From assembly GCA_004017535.1 (NCBI GenBank), contig SAJS01000004.1, positions 366,458 to 430,457 of the forward strand: a stretch of 64,000 nt of DNA. Reading direction: 5' to 3'. Positions 8,326 through 51,142 of the stretch are shown one piece after another. Numbering within the stretch: the stretch's first letter is position 1; every line of letters begins with the position of its first letter. Under the pieces are notes generated by a model. The model saw only the letters and a list, made by a program, of their open reading frames with translations. It did not search any database and was not told where the DNA came from. The translations under genes and the position numbers were made by a program. The stretch comes from Mesorhizobium sp. (GTDB lineage Bacteria > Pseudomonadota > Alphaproteobacteria > Rhizobiales > Rhizobiaceae).

Positions 8326-9048
8326 GTGCGCGAAGATATTCACACGACAGGCGTCCCGGTACTCTGCGTTTCATGCGAGGCGCGGCATCGTGGTATATGC
8401 GGCGCGCTCAACGCCGGGCAGCTCGTCGATCTTGCCAGATCGACGAAACGGCACAAGGCCGAGGCCGGCAAGGAGCTGGTGGGCGATTCCAGGAGCGTCG
8501 AGCGTTTCTCGAACGTGCTTTCAGGCGTCGTGAAGCTGACCAAGACGCTTTCCGACGGCCGCCAGCAAATTGTCGGCGTGCAATTCGCTCCCGATTTCCT
8601 CGGCAGGCCCTTCCAGAGCGAGAGCACGCTCAGCGCCGAGGCGGCGACCGACGTCGAATTGTGCTCGTTCCCGCGCCAGGCGCTGGAGCGCATGATAAAG
8701 GAACAGCCGGACCTTGAGCATCGCCTGCTCGAACAGAAGCTGCGCGAGCTTGACCAGGCGCGCGACTGGATGGTGGCGCTGGGCCGCAAGACGGCCTCGG
8801 AAAAGATCGCGAGCTTCCTTCTGATGATCGCGCGCAACATCGACCCCGCCGCCGGGCCGGAGCGGCGCGGCGCGGCTTTCGATCTGCCGCTGTCGCGCGC
8901 GGAGATCGCGGATTTCTTGGGTCTCACCGTCGAGACGGTGAGCCGGCAGATCACCCGCTTGCGGGGCGAAAGCGTCATCCGCGTCGAAAACAACCGCCAC
9001 GTCATCGTCGACGACATCGGGCGCCTGGCCTCGCGGGCCGGGGACTGA
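8326..9048 (+). CDS. fnrN: FnrN-type oxygen-responsive Crp/Fnr regulator
   Basis: This Crp/Fnr-family transcription factor has a cyclic-nucleotide-binding-like domain and a C-terminal winged helix. From the GTG at 8326 it has 240 residues, the usual length. Cys14, Cys17 and Cys25 (LCVSC then GICGAL), plus Cys113 (VELCSF), match the four ligands of the oxygen-labile [4Fe-4S] cluster of FNR. The recognition helix carries ETVSR (203-207), the residues that read TTGAT half sites. Its neighbours are cytochrome bd genes and a hemerythrin-like gene, and a matching FNR box lies between cydA and cydD. The start is uncertain: the frame stays open to 8206 and no strong ribosome site precedes the GTG. 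Confidence 0.87.
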   Translation: MREDIHTTGVPVLCVSCEARHRGICGALNAGQLVDLARSTKRHKAEAGKELVGDSRSVERFSNVLSGVVKLTKTLSDGRQQIVGVQFAPDFLGRPFQSESTLSAEAATDVELCSFPRQALERMIKEQPDLEHRLLEQKLRELDQARDWMVALGRKTASEKIASFLLMIARNIDPAAGPERRGAAFDLPLSRAEIADFLGLTVETVSRQITRLRGESVIRVENNRHVIVDDIGRLASRAGD

Positions 9049-9065
9049 TCCCCGCCACGTCCCTT

Positions 9066-9116
9066 TAGAGCAATTCCAGGAAAAGTGCGTGGCGTTTTCC
9101 GTCCGGACTTGCGTAA
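9066..9116. repeat. Intergenic repeat family A, copy 1
   Basis: The core gcaattccaggaaaagtg followed by a tttccgtccgga half and ttgcgt recurs in this window at 19045, 38034 (degenerate) and 44812 (inverted). The ends gcaattcc and ggacttgc form an imperfect inverted repeat. It lies between the stops of convergent fnrN and the hemerythrin-like gene. Confidence 0.8.
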
Positions 9117-9126
9117 AAACAAATAC

Positions 9127-9570
9127 TTACTGATTGCCGAGAACCTTCGGCAGCACGTGGTCGCGCTCAAAGGCGATGTGGCGGCGTAACGATTCGAAGA
9201 AGGCGCGCAGCATGTAGCCGAACGCCTCGGGATTTTCGATCTGCCGCCCGTGACCATAGGCCAGCAGTGCCTCGCTGAGATCCGCCGCCGCGCTTTCATC
9301 CTCCAGGTGCTCGAGCTTCAGTCGCGCGACGGTGTTTTCCTCGCCCGTCTGCCGCACGAAGGCAGGGAAGACGACCTCTTCCTCGAAGCGGTGGCACTCG
9401 CGCAGCAGCGGCAAGAGGTCGGCCGCCACGGCGAGGCACTGGAGCCGGTCGACGCGCGAGGGCAGGTCGTCGGCGATGCCTTCGAGCATGTGGCAAAGCG
9501 CAAGCTTCTGCATATGCGCCCGCCGCATATCTGCCGGGCTATGCAGCGGCTCCGGCTCGGCGCCCGTCAT
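9127..9570 (-). CDS. Hemerythrin-domain protein
   Basis: This 147-residue all-helical protein has the spacing of a hemerythrin-like HHE domain: His27, His60 followed by E63-E65 (CHRFEEEVVFP), His88 (KLEHLEDE) and His131 (RRHIAFERDH). Such domains bind a di-iron centre and are linked to oxygen, nitric oxide or iron handling. It starts 25 bases after cydX on the same strand with a GGAG ribosome site, so it is probably the last gene of the cydABX transcript. That suggests a role in microaerobic or nitrosative stress alongside the bd oxidase. The exact ligand is unknown. Confidence 0.85.
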   Translation of the reverse strand: MTGAEPEPLHSPADMRRAHMQKLALCHMLEGIADDLPSRVDRLQCLAVAADLLPLLRECHRFEEEVVFPAFVRQTGEENTVARLKLEHLEDESAAADLSEALLAYGHGRQIENPEAFGYMLRAFFESLRRHIAFERDHVLPKVLGNQ

Positions 9571-9595
9571 GATAGCTCCTCCGTCACGCCCGGGC

Positions 9596-9727
9596 TCAAG
9601 GCGTGGGCAGCGAGACGGTGTCCTCTACAGGTTCTTCGCGAACCGTGCGCAGTTCGTACCAGAGCGCGTTGAGGATGCCGACGGAGGCCGCCAGCCCGAG
9701 GCCGAGTACCCAGGAAAAATACCACAT
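9596..9727 (-). CDS. cydX: Cytochrome bd accessory small subunit CydX
   Basis: This 43-residue single-helix protein begins MWYFSWVLGLGLAASVGILN, followed by ALWYE. The MWYFSWxLG start and conserved LWYE are the hallmark of CydX, which stabilises the haem site of CydAB in the inner membrane. The ATG is at 9727 and the TGA at 9596. It follows cydB by 20 bases and precedes the hemerythrin-like gene. The acidic, Pro-rich tail (EEPVEDTVSLPTP) is longer than in the E. coli protein. Confidence 0.93.
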   Translation of the reverse strand: MWYFSWVLGLGLAASVGILNALWYELRTVREEPVEDTVSLPTP

Positions 9728-9747
9728 GGTCAAAAACTCCGGTTGGA

Positions 9748-10902
9748 TCAATAGGCCGACGAACCCGCTTTCTCGATGCTCTTTTCACCGACCTTGCCCC
9801 ACAACACCCTGTAGACCCAGGCGGTGTAGGCGAGGATCAGCGGCATGAAGATCACCGTCGCAATCAGCATGTTGCGCAACGTGGCGCGACTCGACGAGGT
9901 ATCGAAGACCGCGAGCGAATGACCGGGGTTGCTGCTCGACGGCAACAGGATCGGGAACATCGCGAGCCCCACCGTGGCGATGATCGTCACCACGCCGAGC
10001 TTCGAGGCGATGAAGGTCCACCCTTCGAGCCGCGCCTTGAAGCCGGCGGCGGCAAGCAGTGGCGCTGCGACGCCGAGCGCTGGCACGATCCAGAGTAACG
10101 GATGGGCATGGAAGTTCGCCAGCCATGCGCCGCGATCCGCCACCACGGTCTTGACCAGCGGATTGGACGGCCCATCCCAGACGATCGGCGACGTCACGCG
10201 GTAGCCACCGAGCAGACCGAGCCACACCAGCACGCCGCCGCCGGCGAAGAGCAGCGCCGTGAGGACCGCGGCCTTTGCCCCGATCTGGCCTGCGCGCTTG
10301 GCGACCATGCCTTCCGCCTTGAAGGTCAGCCAAGCCGCACCATGCGTCACCAGCATTGCGAGCGACACAAGGCCGCAATAGAGCGCCAGCGGATTGAGCA
10401 GACCGAAAAGGCTGCCTTCATAGACCGGGCGCAGGTCCGGCGTGAAGTGGAACGGCACGCCCTGCAGCGTGTTGCCGACGGCGACGCCGAAGATCAACGC
10501 CGGCACCGCACCGCCGACGAACAGCGCCCAGTCCCAGCGCGTGCGCCAGGCCGGATCAGGCCTTTTCGAGCGATACTTGAAGCCGACGGGACGCATGATC
10601 AGTGCCAGGAGCACCAGGAACATGGCGAGATAGAAGCCGGAGAAGCTCACCGCGTAAAGCGCCGGCCATGCCGCGAAGATGGCGCCGCCGCCGAGGATGA
10701 ACCACACCTGATTGCCTTCCCAGACAGGCCCGATCGTGTTGATCGCCACGCGGCGCTCGGCATCTGTCTTGGCGACGAAGGGCAAAAGCGCGCCGACCCC
10801 CATGTCGAACCCGTCTGTCGCGGCGAAGCCGATCAACAACACACCGAGCAATACCCACCAGATCACCCGCAGCGTTTCATACTGGAAGAGAAATTCGATC
10901 AT
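9748..10902 (-). CDS. cydB: Cytochrome bd ubiquinol oxidase subunit II
   Basis: This 384-residue polytopic inner-membrane protein is subunit II of the high-affinity bd quinol oxidase. Family features include the N-terminal helix IWWVLLGVLLIGFAATDGFDMGVG and the GNQVWFILGGGAIFAAWP stretch. The ATG at 10902 (MIEFLFQYE) was preferred to an in-frame upstream start because it fits the family N-terminus and lies 13 bases after the cydA stop. It is co-transcribed with cydA and cydX. Confidence 0.96.
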   Translation of the reverse strand: MIEFLFQYETLRVIWWVLLGVLLIGFAATDGFDMGVGALLPFVAKTDAERRVAINTIGPVWEGNQVWFILGGGAIFAAWPALYAVSFSGFYLAMFLVLLALIMRPVGFKYRSKRPDPAWRTRWDWALFVGGAVPALIFGVAVGNTLQGVPFHFTPDLRPVYEGSLFGLLNPLALYCGLVSLAMLVTHGAAWLTFKAEGMVAKRAGQIGAKAAVLTALLFAGGGVLVWLGLLGGYRVTSPIVWDGPSNPLVKTVVADRGAWLANFHAHPLLWIVPALGVAAPLLAAAGFKARLEGWTFIASKLGVVTIIATVGLAMFPILLPSSSNPGHSLAVFDTSSSRATLRNMLIATVIFMPLILAYTAWVYRVLWGKVGEKSIEKAGSSAY

Positions 10903-47016: not shown

Positions 47017-47922
47017 ATGAACGCGCAGATGACCATGAATACGCAGATGAAGCCGATCGCGATCCTTGAGAACGACATCACCCCCGAAGGCAGCGACTAT
47101 GACGTCGTGCGCCGCGCCATCGAGAAGATCAGCCTCGATTATCGCGACCAGCCTTCGCTGGAGGTGCTGGCCGAGGAAGTCGGCGAGACGCCGACCGGTC
47201 TGCAGAAGCTGTTCACCCGCTGGGCCGGCCTGTCGCCGAAAGCCTTTCTGCAGGCGGTGACGCTCGACCACGCGCGCAGGCTGCTCGATTCCGGCATGCC
47301 GCTGCTGGAGACCTCGTTCGAGCTCGGCATGTCCGGCCCCGGCCGGCTGCACGACCTCTTCGTCACACATGAGGCGATGTCGCCCGGCGACTACAAGACG
47401 CGGGGCGCTGGCCTCGCTATTCGCTACGGCTACCACATCTCGCCTTTCGGCATCGCGCTGATCATGGTCACCGACCGCGGCCTCGCCGGCCTCGCCTTCT
47501 GCGATGCCGGCGGCGAGCGGACTGCCTTCGCAGACATGTCCGGTCGCTGGCCGAACGCGACCTATGTCGAGGACATGTCGGCCACCCAGGCTTACGCCGC
47601 GCGTGTCTTCGACCCGACGAAGTGGCGCGCCGACCAGCCGCTGCGCGTGGTGATGATCGGCACCGATTTCCAGCTGCGCGTCTGGGAAGCCTTGCTGCGC
47701 ATCCCGATGGGCAGGGCCTGCACCTATTCCTCGATCGCGGCGAGTATCGGCGCGCCAAGCGCCAGCCGGGCCGTCGGCGCGGCCGTGGGCGCCAACCCGA
47801 TGTCCTTCGTGGTGCCCTGCCATCGGGCGCTGGGCAAGTCGGGCGCACTCACCGGTTACCACTGGGGTCTGACGCGCAAACGCGCCATCCTCGGCTGGGA
47901 AGCGGGGCAAGTGGGTTCCTGA
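47017..47922 (+). CDS. ada: AraC-type HTH plus O6-alkylguanine-DNA alkyltransferase (Ada-like, no N-terminal Ada domain)
   Basis: This 301-residue protein has an AraC-type DNA-binding domain (about 30-130, LAEEVGETPTGLQKLFTRWAG) fused to a methylguanine-DNA methyltransferase domain. The latter has the acceptor motif PCHRALG (Cys near residue 268) and the later SGALTGYHWG. The enzyme moves alkyl groups from O6-guanine to its cysteine. The zinc-binding N-terminal Ada domain, which senses methylphosphotriesters, is missing. It may therefore repair and bind DNA without the usual Ada sensing step. The ATG at 47017 has an AAGGAG box. A hairpin with a T-rich tail follows at 48020. Confidence 0.9.
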   Translation: MNAQMTMNTQMKPIAILENDITPEGSDYDVVRRAIEKISLDYRDQPSLEVLAEEVGETPTGLQKLFTRWAGLSPKAFLQAVTLDHARRLLDSGMPLLETSFELGMSGPGRLHDLFVTHEAMSPGDYKTRGAGLAIRYGYHISPFGIALIMVTDRGLAGLAFCDAGGERTAFADMSGRWPNATYVEDMSATQAYAARVFDPTKWRADQPLRVVMIGTDFQLRVWEALLRIPMGRACTYSSIAASIGAPSASRAVGAAVGANPMSFVVPCHRALGKSGALTGYHWGLTRKRAILGWEAGQVGS

Positions 47923-48082: not shown

Positions 48083-48098
48083 TTAACGCTAAATTAAC
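48083..48098 (+). promoter_or_regulatory. CtrA binding box upstream of the pilin-like cluster
   Basis: TTAACGCTAAATTAAC fits the full CtrA consensus TTAA-N7-TTAAC exactly. It lies 64 bases before the start codon at 48162, the usual promoter distance. CtrA is the cell-cycle master regulator of alphaproteobacteria and controls pili and flagella in relatives. Confidence 0.75.
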
Positions 48099-48161
48099 CA
48101 CGATAAAGGGAAGATGACCCGACGTTGAGCCGGCACCATCCGGCTCGAAGGAGGGGTCTCA

Positions 48162-48632
48162 ATGAAATTCGCTCGCGCCGCAATGGCAGCAGGCCTGCTG
48201 GCCGCCTGTGCCAGCCAGACGGCATCGGCCGCCACCGGAAACGTGCTTTTCAACGGCACGATCACCGCGACTTGCACCATCACGATCAACTCCAACGGCA
48301 CGATGACCGTGAGCAGCAATCTTCAGTCGCTGAGCTCGCACAATGCCGGCGGCTCGGCAGGCAGCGCTCAGGTCGACACGACGGGCGGCGTCTCGCTCAG
48401 CGTGGACCCGGTAACCACTACGACCGTGCCGGCATCGGACACGACGGCGACGACATGGACGCCGACCTTCGCCACTTCAGGCGCGCAGACGATTGCCGAA
48501 ACCGGCACCGCGACCGCGCTGACGGTACCCGGCACATCGACGGTCGCGGTCAATCTCGCCGGCACCAAGAGCGGCACGAACCGGTTCTCCGCCGGCAACT
48601 ACCAGGCAACGGTGACGCTGCGCTGCGAATAA
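48162..48632 (+). CDS. Secreted pilin-like/spore-coat-U-like subunit A
   Basis: This 156-residue exported protein has a signal peptide of about 24 residues (AMAAGLLAACASQTASA). The mature part is rich in Thr, Ser and Ala, strand-rich, with one Cys near the start (TATCTITIN) and one at the end (SAGNYQATVTLRCE). The final xGNYxxxVTxRCE pattern resembles DUF4402 or spore-coat-U-like secreted subunits. A GAAGGAGGGG ribosome site precedes the ATG. It is first in a four-gene run with a CtrA box upstream. The fibre-subunit role is inferred from the fold pattern and context. Confidence 0.72.
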   Translation: MKFARAAMAAGLLAACASQTASAATGNVLFNGTITATCTITINSNGTMTVSSNLQSLSSHNAGGSAGSAQVDTTGGVSLSVDPVTTTTVPASDTTATTWTPTFATSGAQTIAETGTATALTVPGTSTVAVNLAGTKSGTNRFSAGNYQATVTLRCE

Positions 48633-48655
48633 TCCTCTGGCGAAAGGAGCGGTCC

Positions 48656-49048
48656 TTGAGAAGAATTGCGATGCTGGCGGCGGGCCTGATCGCCGCGCTG
48701 TCTCCCATTGCGGCGACCGGCCAGTCGATGACGCCGATGCGGGGCGAGGTGCGATCCTTCACCGATGCCTTCGCCGTCCGCGTCTTTCCGGGCAACCCGT
48801 ACAACCAGCGCATCCGCGTCGAGGTCCATGTCTACGACCAGGACTTCCAGCCCGTCGCGGCCAGGATCACGCCGAGCGCCTTCCTTCTGGCCGGCCAGGC
48901 GTCGCGCCCTGTCTTGGTGGTCGTCCCGTTCGACGGCGCGAACGAGCGTAAAGTGCGTATCTGTACCGAAAGTATCCCCTTTCCAAGCGAGCAGACCCAG
49001 ATAAGGGCACAGATATGCGGAAAGTTCTTCGGGCATCGCAGGTTCTGA
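48656..49048 (+). CDS. Exported PapD-like single-domain protein
   Basis: This 130-residue protein has an N-terminal signal peptide and one immunoglobulin-like domain. The stretch RKVRICTESIPF resembles the G-strand region of PapD-type pilus chaperones (RVCVESIP). Only one domain is present, where PapD chaperones have two. The start is a TTG at 48656 with a GGAG box 7 bases upstream. It is 23 bases after subunit A and overlaps the next gene by 34 bases, so it is in the same operon. A role in holding the subunits is inferred and unproven. Confidence 0.6.
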   Translation: MRRIAMLAAGLIAALSPIAATGQSMTPMRGEVRSFTDAFAVRVFPGNPYNQRIRVEVHVYDQDFQPVAARITPSAFLLAGQASRPVLVVVPFDGANERKVRICTESIPFPSEQTQIRAQICGKFFGHRRF

Positions 49049-49584
49049 CCTTGTCCTTGCTGCCCGCCCTGGCTCTCGTCAGTCGGGGACTTGCCGAGGA
49101 TATCCTGAACCTGAATCAGAACCAGACCGGTTTCAGCCTGCCCGGCGTCAGCTTGCCCCAGGGCCAGGACGAGGTTCATGCCAGCGACGGCACGACCTGC
49201 CGCTCGGCCGTTTCCGGCAGCGGCGCCTATCTCGACCTTGGCGTCATCCGCGGCAACAACTCCAGCAACCATACCAACAGCGACATCGCCACCTATGGCC
49301 GCGTGGTGATCCCGATCGGGCGGACGCCGAAACGCGTCGATTGCAGCCGCCTCTACGAGCTGGAAGTCGAGCGCCTGCAGATGGAATTGAAGCTCCTCAA
49401 AATGGGTCTCGGCACCGACGGCCAGACGACAGGGAGTGTGGCCGCCTCCCCGCCCCAGAACGCCGCGCCCCAAGCCAGTGCGGCGCAAGTCAGCGCGGCC
49501 CAAGTCAAATCAGCGGGATGGGCCAACGAGGGCTGGACCATCAGAGGCACGACCGGCAATGAGAAGAAAAAGAAACGGAAATAG
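49015..49584 (+). CDS. Exported protein with C-terminal helix, cluster member of unknown function
   Basis: This 189-residue protein starts at 49015 inside the end of the preceding gene. It has a signal peptide (residues about 8-27, ending LAEDIL), a central region with two cysteines (GTTCRSAVSGSGAYLDLGVI and VDCSRL), an amphipathic helix (YELEVERLQMELKLLKMGL) and a low-complexity Ala/Gln/Ser tail ending in a Lys run (EKKKKRK). I do not recognise the family. Its end overlaps the next gene by 26 bases. It might anchor or cap the proposed surface structure. Confidence 0.62.
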   Translation: MRKVLRASQVLTLSLLPALALVSRGLAEDILNLNQNQTGFSLPGVSLPQGQDEVHASDGTTCRSAVSGSGAYLDLGVIRGNNSSNHTNSDIATYGRVVIPIGRTPKRVDCSRLYELEVERLQMELKLLKMGLGTDGQTTGSVAASPPQNAAPQASAAQVSAAQVKSAGWANEGWTIRGTTGNEKKKKRK

Positions 49585-50041
49585 AAGCGCGCTGTTCGCG
49601 CTGGCGGCGCTTGCCGGTCTCTGCCTTCCGGCGCAAGCGGCGATCATCGGCACCTGCGCGATCGTGATCGGCGCCTCGGGGACGATGAAATCGAACCCCG
49701 CCATCGACATCTTGGGCTCCAAGCAGGCAGGCGGGTCGAGCGCCGGCGCCACCATCACGGCGAACTCGACGCTGTGTTCCATCCTAAACCTGCTGGACTG
49801 CTATACCGTTTCCGCGCCGGCGCCGATCGCCTTCACCTCGGCACCGAGCGGCGGCGACACCAATGTCACCTTCGCCACCGTCTTCCGCCTCGACGGCTCC
49901 GGCGTGGACATACCGGGCAGCTCGCCGCAGCGGGTGATCAACGGCACCCACACCATCCAGGTCGATCTCACCGCCACCAAGTCGCCCGGCATCTTCCCGG
50001 CAGGCAACTATCAGGGCGCGGTGACGGTGCGCTGCGAATGA
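49559..50041 (+). CDS. Secreted pilin-like subunit B
   Basis: This 160-residue exported protein has a signal peptide (MRRKRNGNRSALFALAALAG, then LCLPAQAA). The mature protein has cysteines at GTCAIVIG, LCSILNLLDCY and the final RCE. The end FPAGNYQGAVTVRCE closely matches the end of subunit A, so the two are likely related subunits of one structure. Its ATG lies within the previous gene, suggesting coupled translation. No usher or sortase-like gene follows; ribokinase is next. Confidence 0.68.
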   Translation: MRRKRNGNRSALFALAALAGLCLPAQAAIIGTCAIVIGASGTMKSNPAIDILGSKQAGGSSAGATITANSTLCSILNLLDCYTVSAPAPIAFTSAPSGGDTNVTFATVFRLDGSGVDIPGSSPQRVINGTHTIQVDLTATKSPGIFPAGNYQGAVTVRCE

Positions 50042-50236: not shown

Positions 50237-51142
50237 GTGATTATCGTTGTCGGCTCGATCAACCTCGATCTCATCGCCAATGTCGACCGTCTGCCGGAAC
50301 CCGGCGAGACGGTGCGCGGCTCGAGCTTCGCCACCGCCCCCGGCGGCAAGGGCGCCAACCAGGCGCTGGCCGCGGCGCGCGCGGGAGCCCAGGTACGCAT
50401 GGTGGGCGCGGTCGGCAAGGATAGTTTCGCCGCCGACGCGCTCGCCCTTCTCAAGGCCGGCAATGTCGATCTCTCCGGTGTCGGCCAAAGCTTCGCCTCG
50501 ACCGGCACCGCCTTGATCCTGGTCGGAGCCGATGGCGAGAACGTCATCGCCGTCGTGCCGGGCGCCAATGATTCGGTGGTGCCGGGCGATGTCGCCAAGG
50601 CCTATCTCAAAAAGGGCGATGTCGTGCTCCTGCAGCACGAGATCCCGCTGCAGACGGTAGAAGCCGCGCTCGACGCGGCGCGCGCGGCGGGCGCCGTCAG
50701 CGTGCTCAACACCGCCCCCTTCCGTGCCGAAGCCGCCGGTTTCCTAGGCAAGGCCGACTATGCGGTCGCCAACGAGACCGAATTCGATCTTTATGGCGAG
50801 GCGCTGTCGCTTTCCGGGCGCGACCGCCCCGCCCGCATGCGCGACTATGCCCAAAAGACCGGCCGCGCCATCGTCGTCACGCTCGGCGGCGACGGCGTGC
50901 TTGCCGCGACGCCGCACGATTTCCTCGCCATCCCGGCGCTGAAGATCACGCCGGTCGACACGGTCGGCGCCGGCGACACTTTCTGCGGCTATTTCGGCGC
51001 CGGCCTGTCGTCGGGCCTTTCACTCGAACAGGCGCTTACCCGCGCCGCCGCGGCCGGCTCGCTCGCCTGCCTGAAGCCCGGCGCGCAGCCGGCGATCCCG
51101 CTGACCAAGGATGTCGACGCGGCTTTGGCGGGAATGCATTAA
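50237..51142 (+). CDS. rbsK: Ribokinase (PfkB family)
   Basis: This 301-residue PfkB-type sugar kinase likely phosphorylates ribose in the cytoplasm. The substrate motif (PGGKGANQALAAARAG) and the C-terminal motif PVDTVGAGDTFCGYFGAGL with the catalytic Asp are present. The start is a GTG at 50237 with a GGGAGG box; the longer frame upstream reaches into non-coding sequence. It is two bases from the amidase gene and near a nucleoside hydrolase gene, which suits use of ribose released from nucleosides. Confidence 0.88.
   Translation: MIIVVGSINLDLIANVDRLPEPGETVRGSSFATAPGGKGANQALAAARAGAQVRMVGAVGKDSFAADALALLKAGNVDLSGVGQSFASTGTALILVGADGENVIAVVPGANDSVVPGDVAKAYLKKGDVVLLQHEIPLQTVEAALDAARAAGAVSVLNTAPFRAEAAGFLGKADYAVANETEFDLYGEALSLSGRDRPARMRDYAQKTGRAIVVTLGGDGVLAATPHDFLAIPALKITPVDTVGAGDTFCGYFGAGLSSGLSLEQALTRAAAAGSLACLKPGAQPAIPLTKDVDAALAGMH

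Follow-up and report, generated by a model that had tools for sequence, protein, structure and literature searches.

The assembly of chaperone-usher pili (type 1, P, Caf1/F1, CFA/I and archaic Csu pili among them) is textbook knowledge: the usher acts as both exit and assembly platform, and tip subunits have no donor segment. The pilins of Tad (Flp) pili are type IV prepilins. Archaic pili use the chaperone-usher pathway (PMC9452303), and donor-strand complementation without an usher is described for the type V pili of Bacteroidales, whose precursors are lipidated and protease-processed, and for archaeal threads, for which a chaperone could not be assigned (PMC9715654). Could a PapD-type chaperone then serve pilin-like subunits where no usher is found? 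Here, we describe a cluster of four genes, termed A, B, C and D, in a stretch of 64,000 nucleotides (the window) from Mesorhizobium sp. contig SAJS01000004.1. The cluster probably encodes a chaperone-dependent, usher-free fibre or capped chain of pilin-like subunits of the donor-strand type, with C in place of the usher.

Based on the open reading frames, the four genes are co-directional and overlapping or 23 bases apart, as stated in the initial annotation: the 23 nucleotides lie between A and B (48633-48655), B and C share 34 nucleotides, and C and D share 26. All four products had also been called exported, and signal-like N-termini agree with this, the call resting on a crude cleavage rule and not on SignalP. 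All four products stay below the cut-offs of Pfam and NCBIfam, and sequence searches of Pfam, NCBIfam and PDB with each of them gave no convincing match.

With strong support from the modelled fold, B is predicted to be a PapD-type chaperone lacking all but the N-terminal domain, and the PapD-like character first read from its sequence is thereby upheld. Mature B, of about 108 residues, aligns over its whole length with the N-terminal domain alone, and the first 44 rows of a Foldseek search and the first 34 rows of a VIA search with the B model are all pilus chaperone entries. An Arg7/Lys101 pair stands at the places of Arg8/Lys112 of PapD-type chaperones, and the cleft residues are conserved within the rhizobial branch. 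The profile PF00345 has no match in the genome from which the window comes (the source genome). Lone B relatives with 28-38% identity also occur outside modules (L049 6360-6824, L050 7691-8215, L051 7861-8415, L053 7841-8284), and appear to be a second single-domain PapD-like family whose partners are not known. An open reading frame similar to them by eye is located just 5' of A in another locus (L205 16657-17109, minus strand), divergent from A.

A and D are homologous, judging by the comparison of their profiles (hhalign E 5.1e-41), and the C-terminal ending that had been noticed in both is present as GNYQATVTLRCE in A and GNYQGAVTVRCE in D. The model of A has a pilin-like fold, at moderate strength; the products of the genes at 48162 and 48656 are thus related in their models to pilin and chaperone folds, as had been proposed. 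In A, 14 residues separate the predicted cleavage site from the first Cys, a putative donor-type N-terminal segment, and the chain terminates one residue past the last Cys. In D, only 5 residues precede the first Cys and the donor-type segment is missing; no more than 8 residues are found there in 71 of 76 D proteins. Like SCPU and DUF4402 proteins, A and D are small, exported and strand-rich, with a last strand of the AGxYxxTVTV type; unlike them, they give no Pfam or profile match. Neither SCPU (PF05229) nor DUF4402 (PF14352) is among the 25 of 28 families listed for 59 singly scanned A/D proteins, neither occurs in the source genome, and the A/D profile matches neither profile, a test of little power because SCPU and DUF4402 do not match each other either. 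It should be noted that the signal peptide of Mesorhizobium A (48162-48230 in the window) contains a lipobox-like LAAC or LVAC, with the Cys in 13 of the 14 distinct A sequences listed and Trp in the remaining one (L060), while by eye many A proteins of other branches have no such Cys.

No usher adjoins the cluster, as was remarked from the start, and this is true not only at the locus but across the whole source genome, where the usher profile PF00577 has no match. A distant usher that always co-occurs was also looked for and not found: PF00577 is above cut-off in 2 of 20 module-bearing genomes (source genome included), on other contigs. The same holds for 2 of 10 further genomes, where the match is again on another contig or a long way from the module, and seven phage or plasmid records have none. 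An usher above cut-off is consequently missing in 26 of the 30 bacterial genomes with B and/or C, one of which (G1001) has a sub-threshold match (E 1.2e-4).

Across rhizobia, the genes were found to stay together. When the family was searched with B, 21 of 151 genomes had a match; a weak one with stops (G050) was dropped in later counts, leaving the 20 module genomes, the source genome among them. A scan of named genomes kept the best 80 of 124 relatives, belonging to Mesorhizobium, Aminobacter, Nitratireductor, Aureimonas and metagenome-assembled genomes. Of 104 loci, a set in which some contigs are represented twice and four entries are lone B paralogues, 81 have the order A-B-C-D and 99 have C directly after B, and the C match starts ahead of the B stop in 81 of 82 B-C pairs (median -33 nucleotides). 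The gene set is therefore not a matter of chance. Some loci have tandem copies such as ABCABC. In the window, an ada-type gene (47017-47922) precedes the cluster and a ribokinase-type gene (50237-51142) follows it, and the same flanks are seen in Mesorhizobium and Aminobacter, but at least four other neighbourhoods exist, including a moeA-like one and a corrinoid-type one (both named by eye) and a Tad-type operon. Since the flanks differ between loci, the module travels as a unit. The A-B-C order is kept in another family of the same order (L164) and in another order of the same class (L233). Several Mesorhizobium genomes are without the module, and matches were obtained in 6 of 297 genomes of the order with the B profile, in 2 of 385 of the class with that of rhizobial C, and in 10 of 398 of the phylum with a broad C profile; by these search counts, therefore, the module is patchy.

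Judging from sequence comparison, A-B-C, or B-C together with pilin-like subunits, occurs in rhizobia, in vibrio-type genomes and plasmids, and in tailed phages. For example, tblastn with C found two Vibrio nigripulchritudo plasmids (36% identity, E 2e-14) and, at E 0.01, 80 phage records, with E values down to 5e-11 for Vibrio and only near 7e-3 for the Klebsiella phages listed. In one V. nigripulchritudo plasmid (L208), A, a longer protein with a pilin-like end segment, an unannotated B (9574-9975) and C are present; the longer protein (8793-9581, 262 residues), whose end resembles a pilin subunit, may be a two-domain tip protein. Four vibrio-type loci (L232, L234, L235, L221) contain B and C together with at least one subunit, L232 closely resembling Vibrio sp. 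THAF190c, and in a fifth (L236) no B was seen. The branches are joined by profiles for A and B and by sequence for C: phage A matches rhizobial A/D at E 3.6e-12, the vibrio and jumbo-phage subunits match rhizobial A/D at E 4.2e-6, and phage plus vibrio B matches rhizobial B at E 6.3e-6.

The phage tallies were made over 50,697 records, in which GenBank/RefSeq duplicates and many near-identical isolates are included. A and B were each found in 179 phage records, all of Vibrio, with 80% query coverage of A in 135. C, with an Erwinia phage query, was found in 205 records (Vibrio 181, Klebsiella 13, Serratia 6, Erwinia 3, Raoultella 1, Stenotrophomonas 1), 125 of which cover more than 80% of the query, and the jumbo-phage subunit in 24 records, with numbers per non-Vibrio genus equal to those of C. 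The genes A, B and C are consecutive in Vibrio phage K437a (L212) and adjoin in the compared records, such as MK907780 (A 93590-93961, B 93949-94341, C 94353-94634), while the Klebsiella, Erwinia and Stenotrophomonas phages opened have the order B, C, subunit. The Vibrio phage A, B and C correspond to phrog_25895, phrog_25455 and phrog_37374; PHROGs gives the function of all three as unknown and does not connect them with pili or chaperones. Scans of viral contigs gave four relatives with phage C and none with rhizobial C or with phage B. Among predicted viral structures, only 2 of 819 matches to the B model are at E ≤ 1e-3, and unrelated immunoglobulin (Ig)-like viral proteins are among the rest; an uncharacterised protein of Vibrio phage Ceto, a phage which carries B according to tblastn, matches at E 2.3e-2 (TM 0.61-0.65). 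In the Vibrio phages opened, a large protein precedes the module (phrog_10818 in K437a), and in T5-like phages the holin and endolysin genes are located downstream of it. Because of these positions, the phage module is likely to be expressed late. These phages are lytic, and one might guess that the module shields the infected cell. The words mass spectrometry do not occur in the Vibrio phage ValSw3-3 paper.

Because C adjoins the chaperone gene, it may replace the usher. Its sequence suggests a pair of amphipathic, strand-like stretches joined by a variable-length loop, a helix-like segment of coiled-coil character after the pair, and two conserved Cys; one Pro, two Gly, two Cys and one Tyr are invariant in 12 diverse C sequences. 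Two short stretches show a strong hydrophobic/polar alternation, e.g., 4.1, -3.5, 2.2, -0.4, 3.4 on the Kyte-Doolittle scale. Such a pattern would suit a strand pair for an oligomeric barrel just as well as a small soluble domain. Pfam and PDB hold no convincing relative of C, and the C of the window matches phrog_37374 at E 4.5e-14. The Lys-rich tail previously ascribed to the product of the gene at 49015 is present in Mesorhizobium, and mainly limited to the sequences of this genus. In addition, some phage C genes are apparently annotated with too late a start (L212 4896-4998, L217 6920-7000, L210 4932-5034), where an in-frame upstream ATG yields a signal-peptide-like segment overlapping the B gene. 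In Vibrio phage VF16 (L211 4734-5294), the C domain is fused behind a phrog_16185 (tail protein) / Pfam DUF7265 domain, and neither A nor B is annotated ahead of the fusion gene.

Table 1. Features of the A-B-C-D cluster, in window positions.
Feature	Position	Strand	Description
A	48162..48632	+	Open reading frame, 156 residues; exported pilin-like subunit (predicted)
B	48656..49048	+	Open reading frame, 130 residues, TTG start (ATG at 48671 possible); predicted single-domain PapD-type chaperone
C	49015..49584	+	Open reading frame, 189 residues; predicted exported protein without Pfam family, overlaps the chaperone gene
D	49559..50041	+	Open reading frame, 160 residues; homologue of A, candidate tip or cap subunit
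TTAA-N7-TTAA box, CtrA-type	48083..48097		Exact, read in the sequence, 5' of the cluster

How could such a system work? The folds of A and B, the homologies, the gene order and the absence of an usher were computed, and from them we infer polymerisation, exit and the role of C as follows. All four proteins would reach the periplasm through the Sec pathway, and there B would lend its G1 strand to the open groove of each subunit and its Arg7/Lys101 pair would clamp the subunit's free carboxylate one residue past the last Cys. The A subunits would then chain through their N-terminal segments by donor-strand exchange, D, having no donor segment, would occupy the distal end, and C, encoded beside B and often overlapping it, would serve as assembly platform, outer-membrane exit or anchor in the usher's stead. 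In rhizobia, CtrA would time the expression to the cell cycle. The proposed system is like the chaperone-usher pili in its pilin-like subunits with an N-terminal donor-type segment, in its PapD-type chaperone domain with the Arg/Lys pair, and in having one subunit (D) without a donor segment, as in tip subunits. It is unlike them in that the module has no usher, the chaperone consists of the N-terminal domain only, C, of no known family, is the usual partner, and phages carry the module too. With the type V pili and archaeal threads, it would share donor-strand complementation without an usher.

It seems unlikely that no fibre is exported at all, with A and D acting as single subunits or short chains in the periplasm or outside the cell (a coat, or a blocker of outer-membrane receptors) and B as a folding helper. 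Such a reading would agree with the lack of any exit gate known for the module, with its presence in phages, where a receptor-blocking coat would make sense, and with the single subunit type in L233, L219 and L220. However, the donor-type N-terminal segment is present in A proteins across great evolutionary distance and is lost in D alone, which is what a chain-ending subunit predicts.

It is even less probable that the exit gate is borrowed, namely that the secretin of the Tad pilus lets the fibre out and C merely anchors it, the subunits and the chaperone being as described. CtrA controls Tad pilins, the module has a CtrA-type box upstream, and cpaD is present in all 20 module-bearing genomes tested. 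In the genome G135 (L205 8528-16639, L039), a second Tad-type operon, located apart from the main locus with cpaD, leads into the A-B-C-D module; the genes of this operon are cpaB, secretin, cpaE-like, cpaF, tadB, tadC and tadD-like, with the Pfam names RcpC/CpaB, secretin, T2SSE, two T2SSF and TPR protein. The same neighbours are found in G114 (L040/L206) and in a metagenome-assembled genome (L124). However, the presence of cpaD does not discriminate, the comparison having covered module-bearing genomes only, and to our knowledge Tad is near universal in these bacteria. Moreover, at least five arrangements were seen, that with Tad genes being one of them, and the annotated neighbours in phages, mostly hypothetical proteins, include none named as a Tad gene. 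Unlike Tad pilins, A and D are predicted Ig-type subunits and not type IV prepilins.

That B is itself a structural subunit with a complete Ig fold, and not a chaperone, is very improbable: pilus chaperones fill the first rows of both structure searches, the B profile aligns with neither the A/D nor the SCPU profile, and the rhizobial branch has kept the cleft residues. Finally, a decayed chaperone-usher operon is hardly credible. The folds do match that pathway, and the usher and the second chaperone domain are both missing, but rhizobia, vibrios and several phage groups retain open frames, the overlap of B with C and the gene order (A-B-C or B-C-subunit), no usher exists anywhere in 18 of 20 module genomes, and the loci opened show no intermediate in which usher fragments lie next to the module. 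The phrase 'reduced or novel surface-fibre or coat system' used in the initial annotation is reasonable in its general sense, given the folds and the lack of an usher. 'Separate' would nevertheless be a better word than 'reduced', as this type of chaperone and its partner C are found again in alpha- and gammaproteobacteria and in phages.

An usher-free fibre with C in the usher's place may, tentatively, be taken further. The cluster would then represent an unnamed class of donor-strand appendages, with a one-domain PapD chaperone, pilin-like subunits and a C oligomer (amphipathic strand pair plus coiled coil) as the outer-membrane exit or anchor that replaces an usher of about 800 residues, and several groups of tailed phages would build the appendage late on the infected cell, perhaps as a shield against further phages. 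A conserved chaperone-subunit module without usher but with a candidate substitute gene offers a small system for donor-strand fibre assembly and export, and may be an unrecognised way to build a surface fibre. In addition, phage protein families of unknown function thereby receive a first structural assignment, and one may ask why phages carry pilin-like proteins. Among the matches listed in the open-access literature, there is no report of a usher-free PapD-type system or of its phage copies, which is no proof of absence from print.

The upstream box of the window (TTAACGCTAAATTAA), which we take to be a CtrA site, was compared among the window and 79 named loci, with L129 excluded as it has no A upstream; these 80 loci are related and do not represent 80 independent events. 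In 40 of the 80, an exact TTAA-N7-TTAA lies no more than 350 nucleotides ahead of the first Cys codon of A, against a mean of 0.39 and a maximum of 3 in 200 mononucleotide shuffles, and 29 further loci have a box with one mismatch, where the shuffles give one mismatch at most in 9.8 on average. In L107-L133, the exact box is missing in 14 of 26 loci. The CtrA box claimed at first therefore stands as an enriched TTAA-N7-TTAA and a putative CtrA site. CtrA is reported to activate pilA in Caulobacter (PMC11264516). Among the exact boxes, 17 distinct sequences share the half-sites, and 32 of the 40 are located 181-200 nucleotides before the first Cys codon of A.
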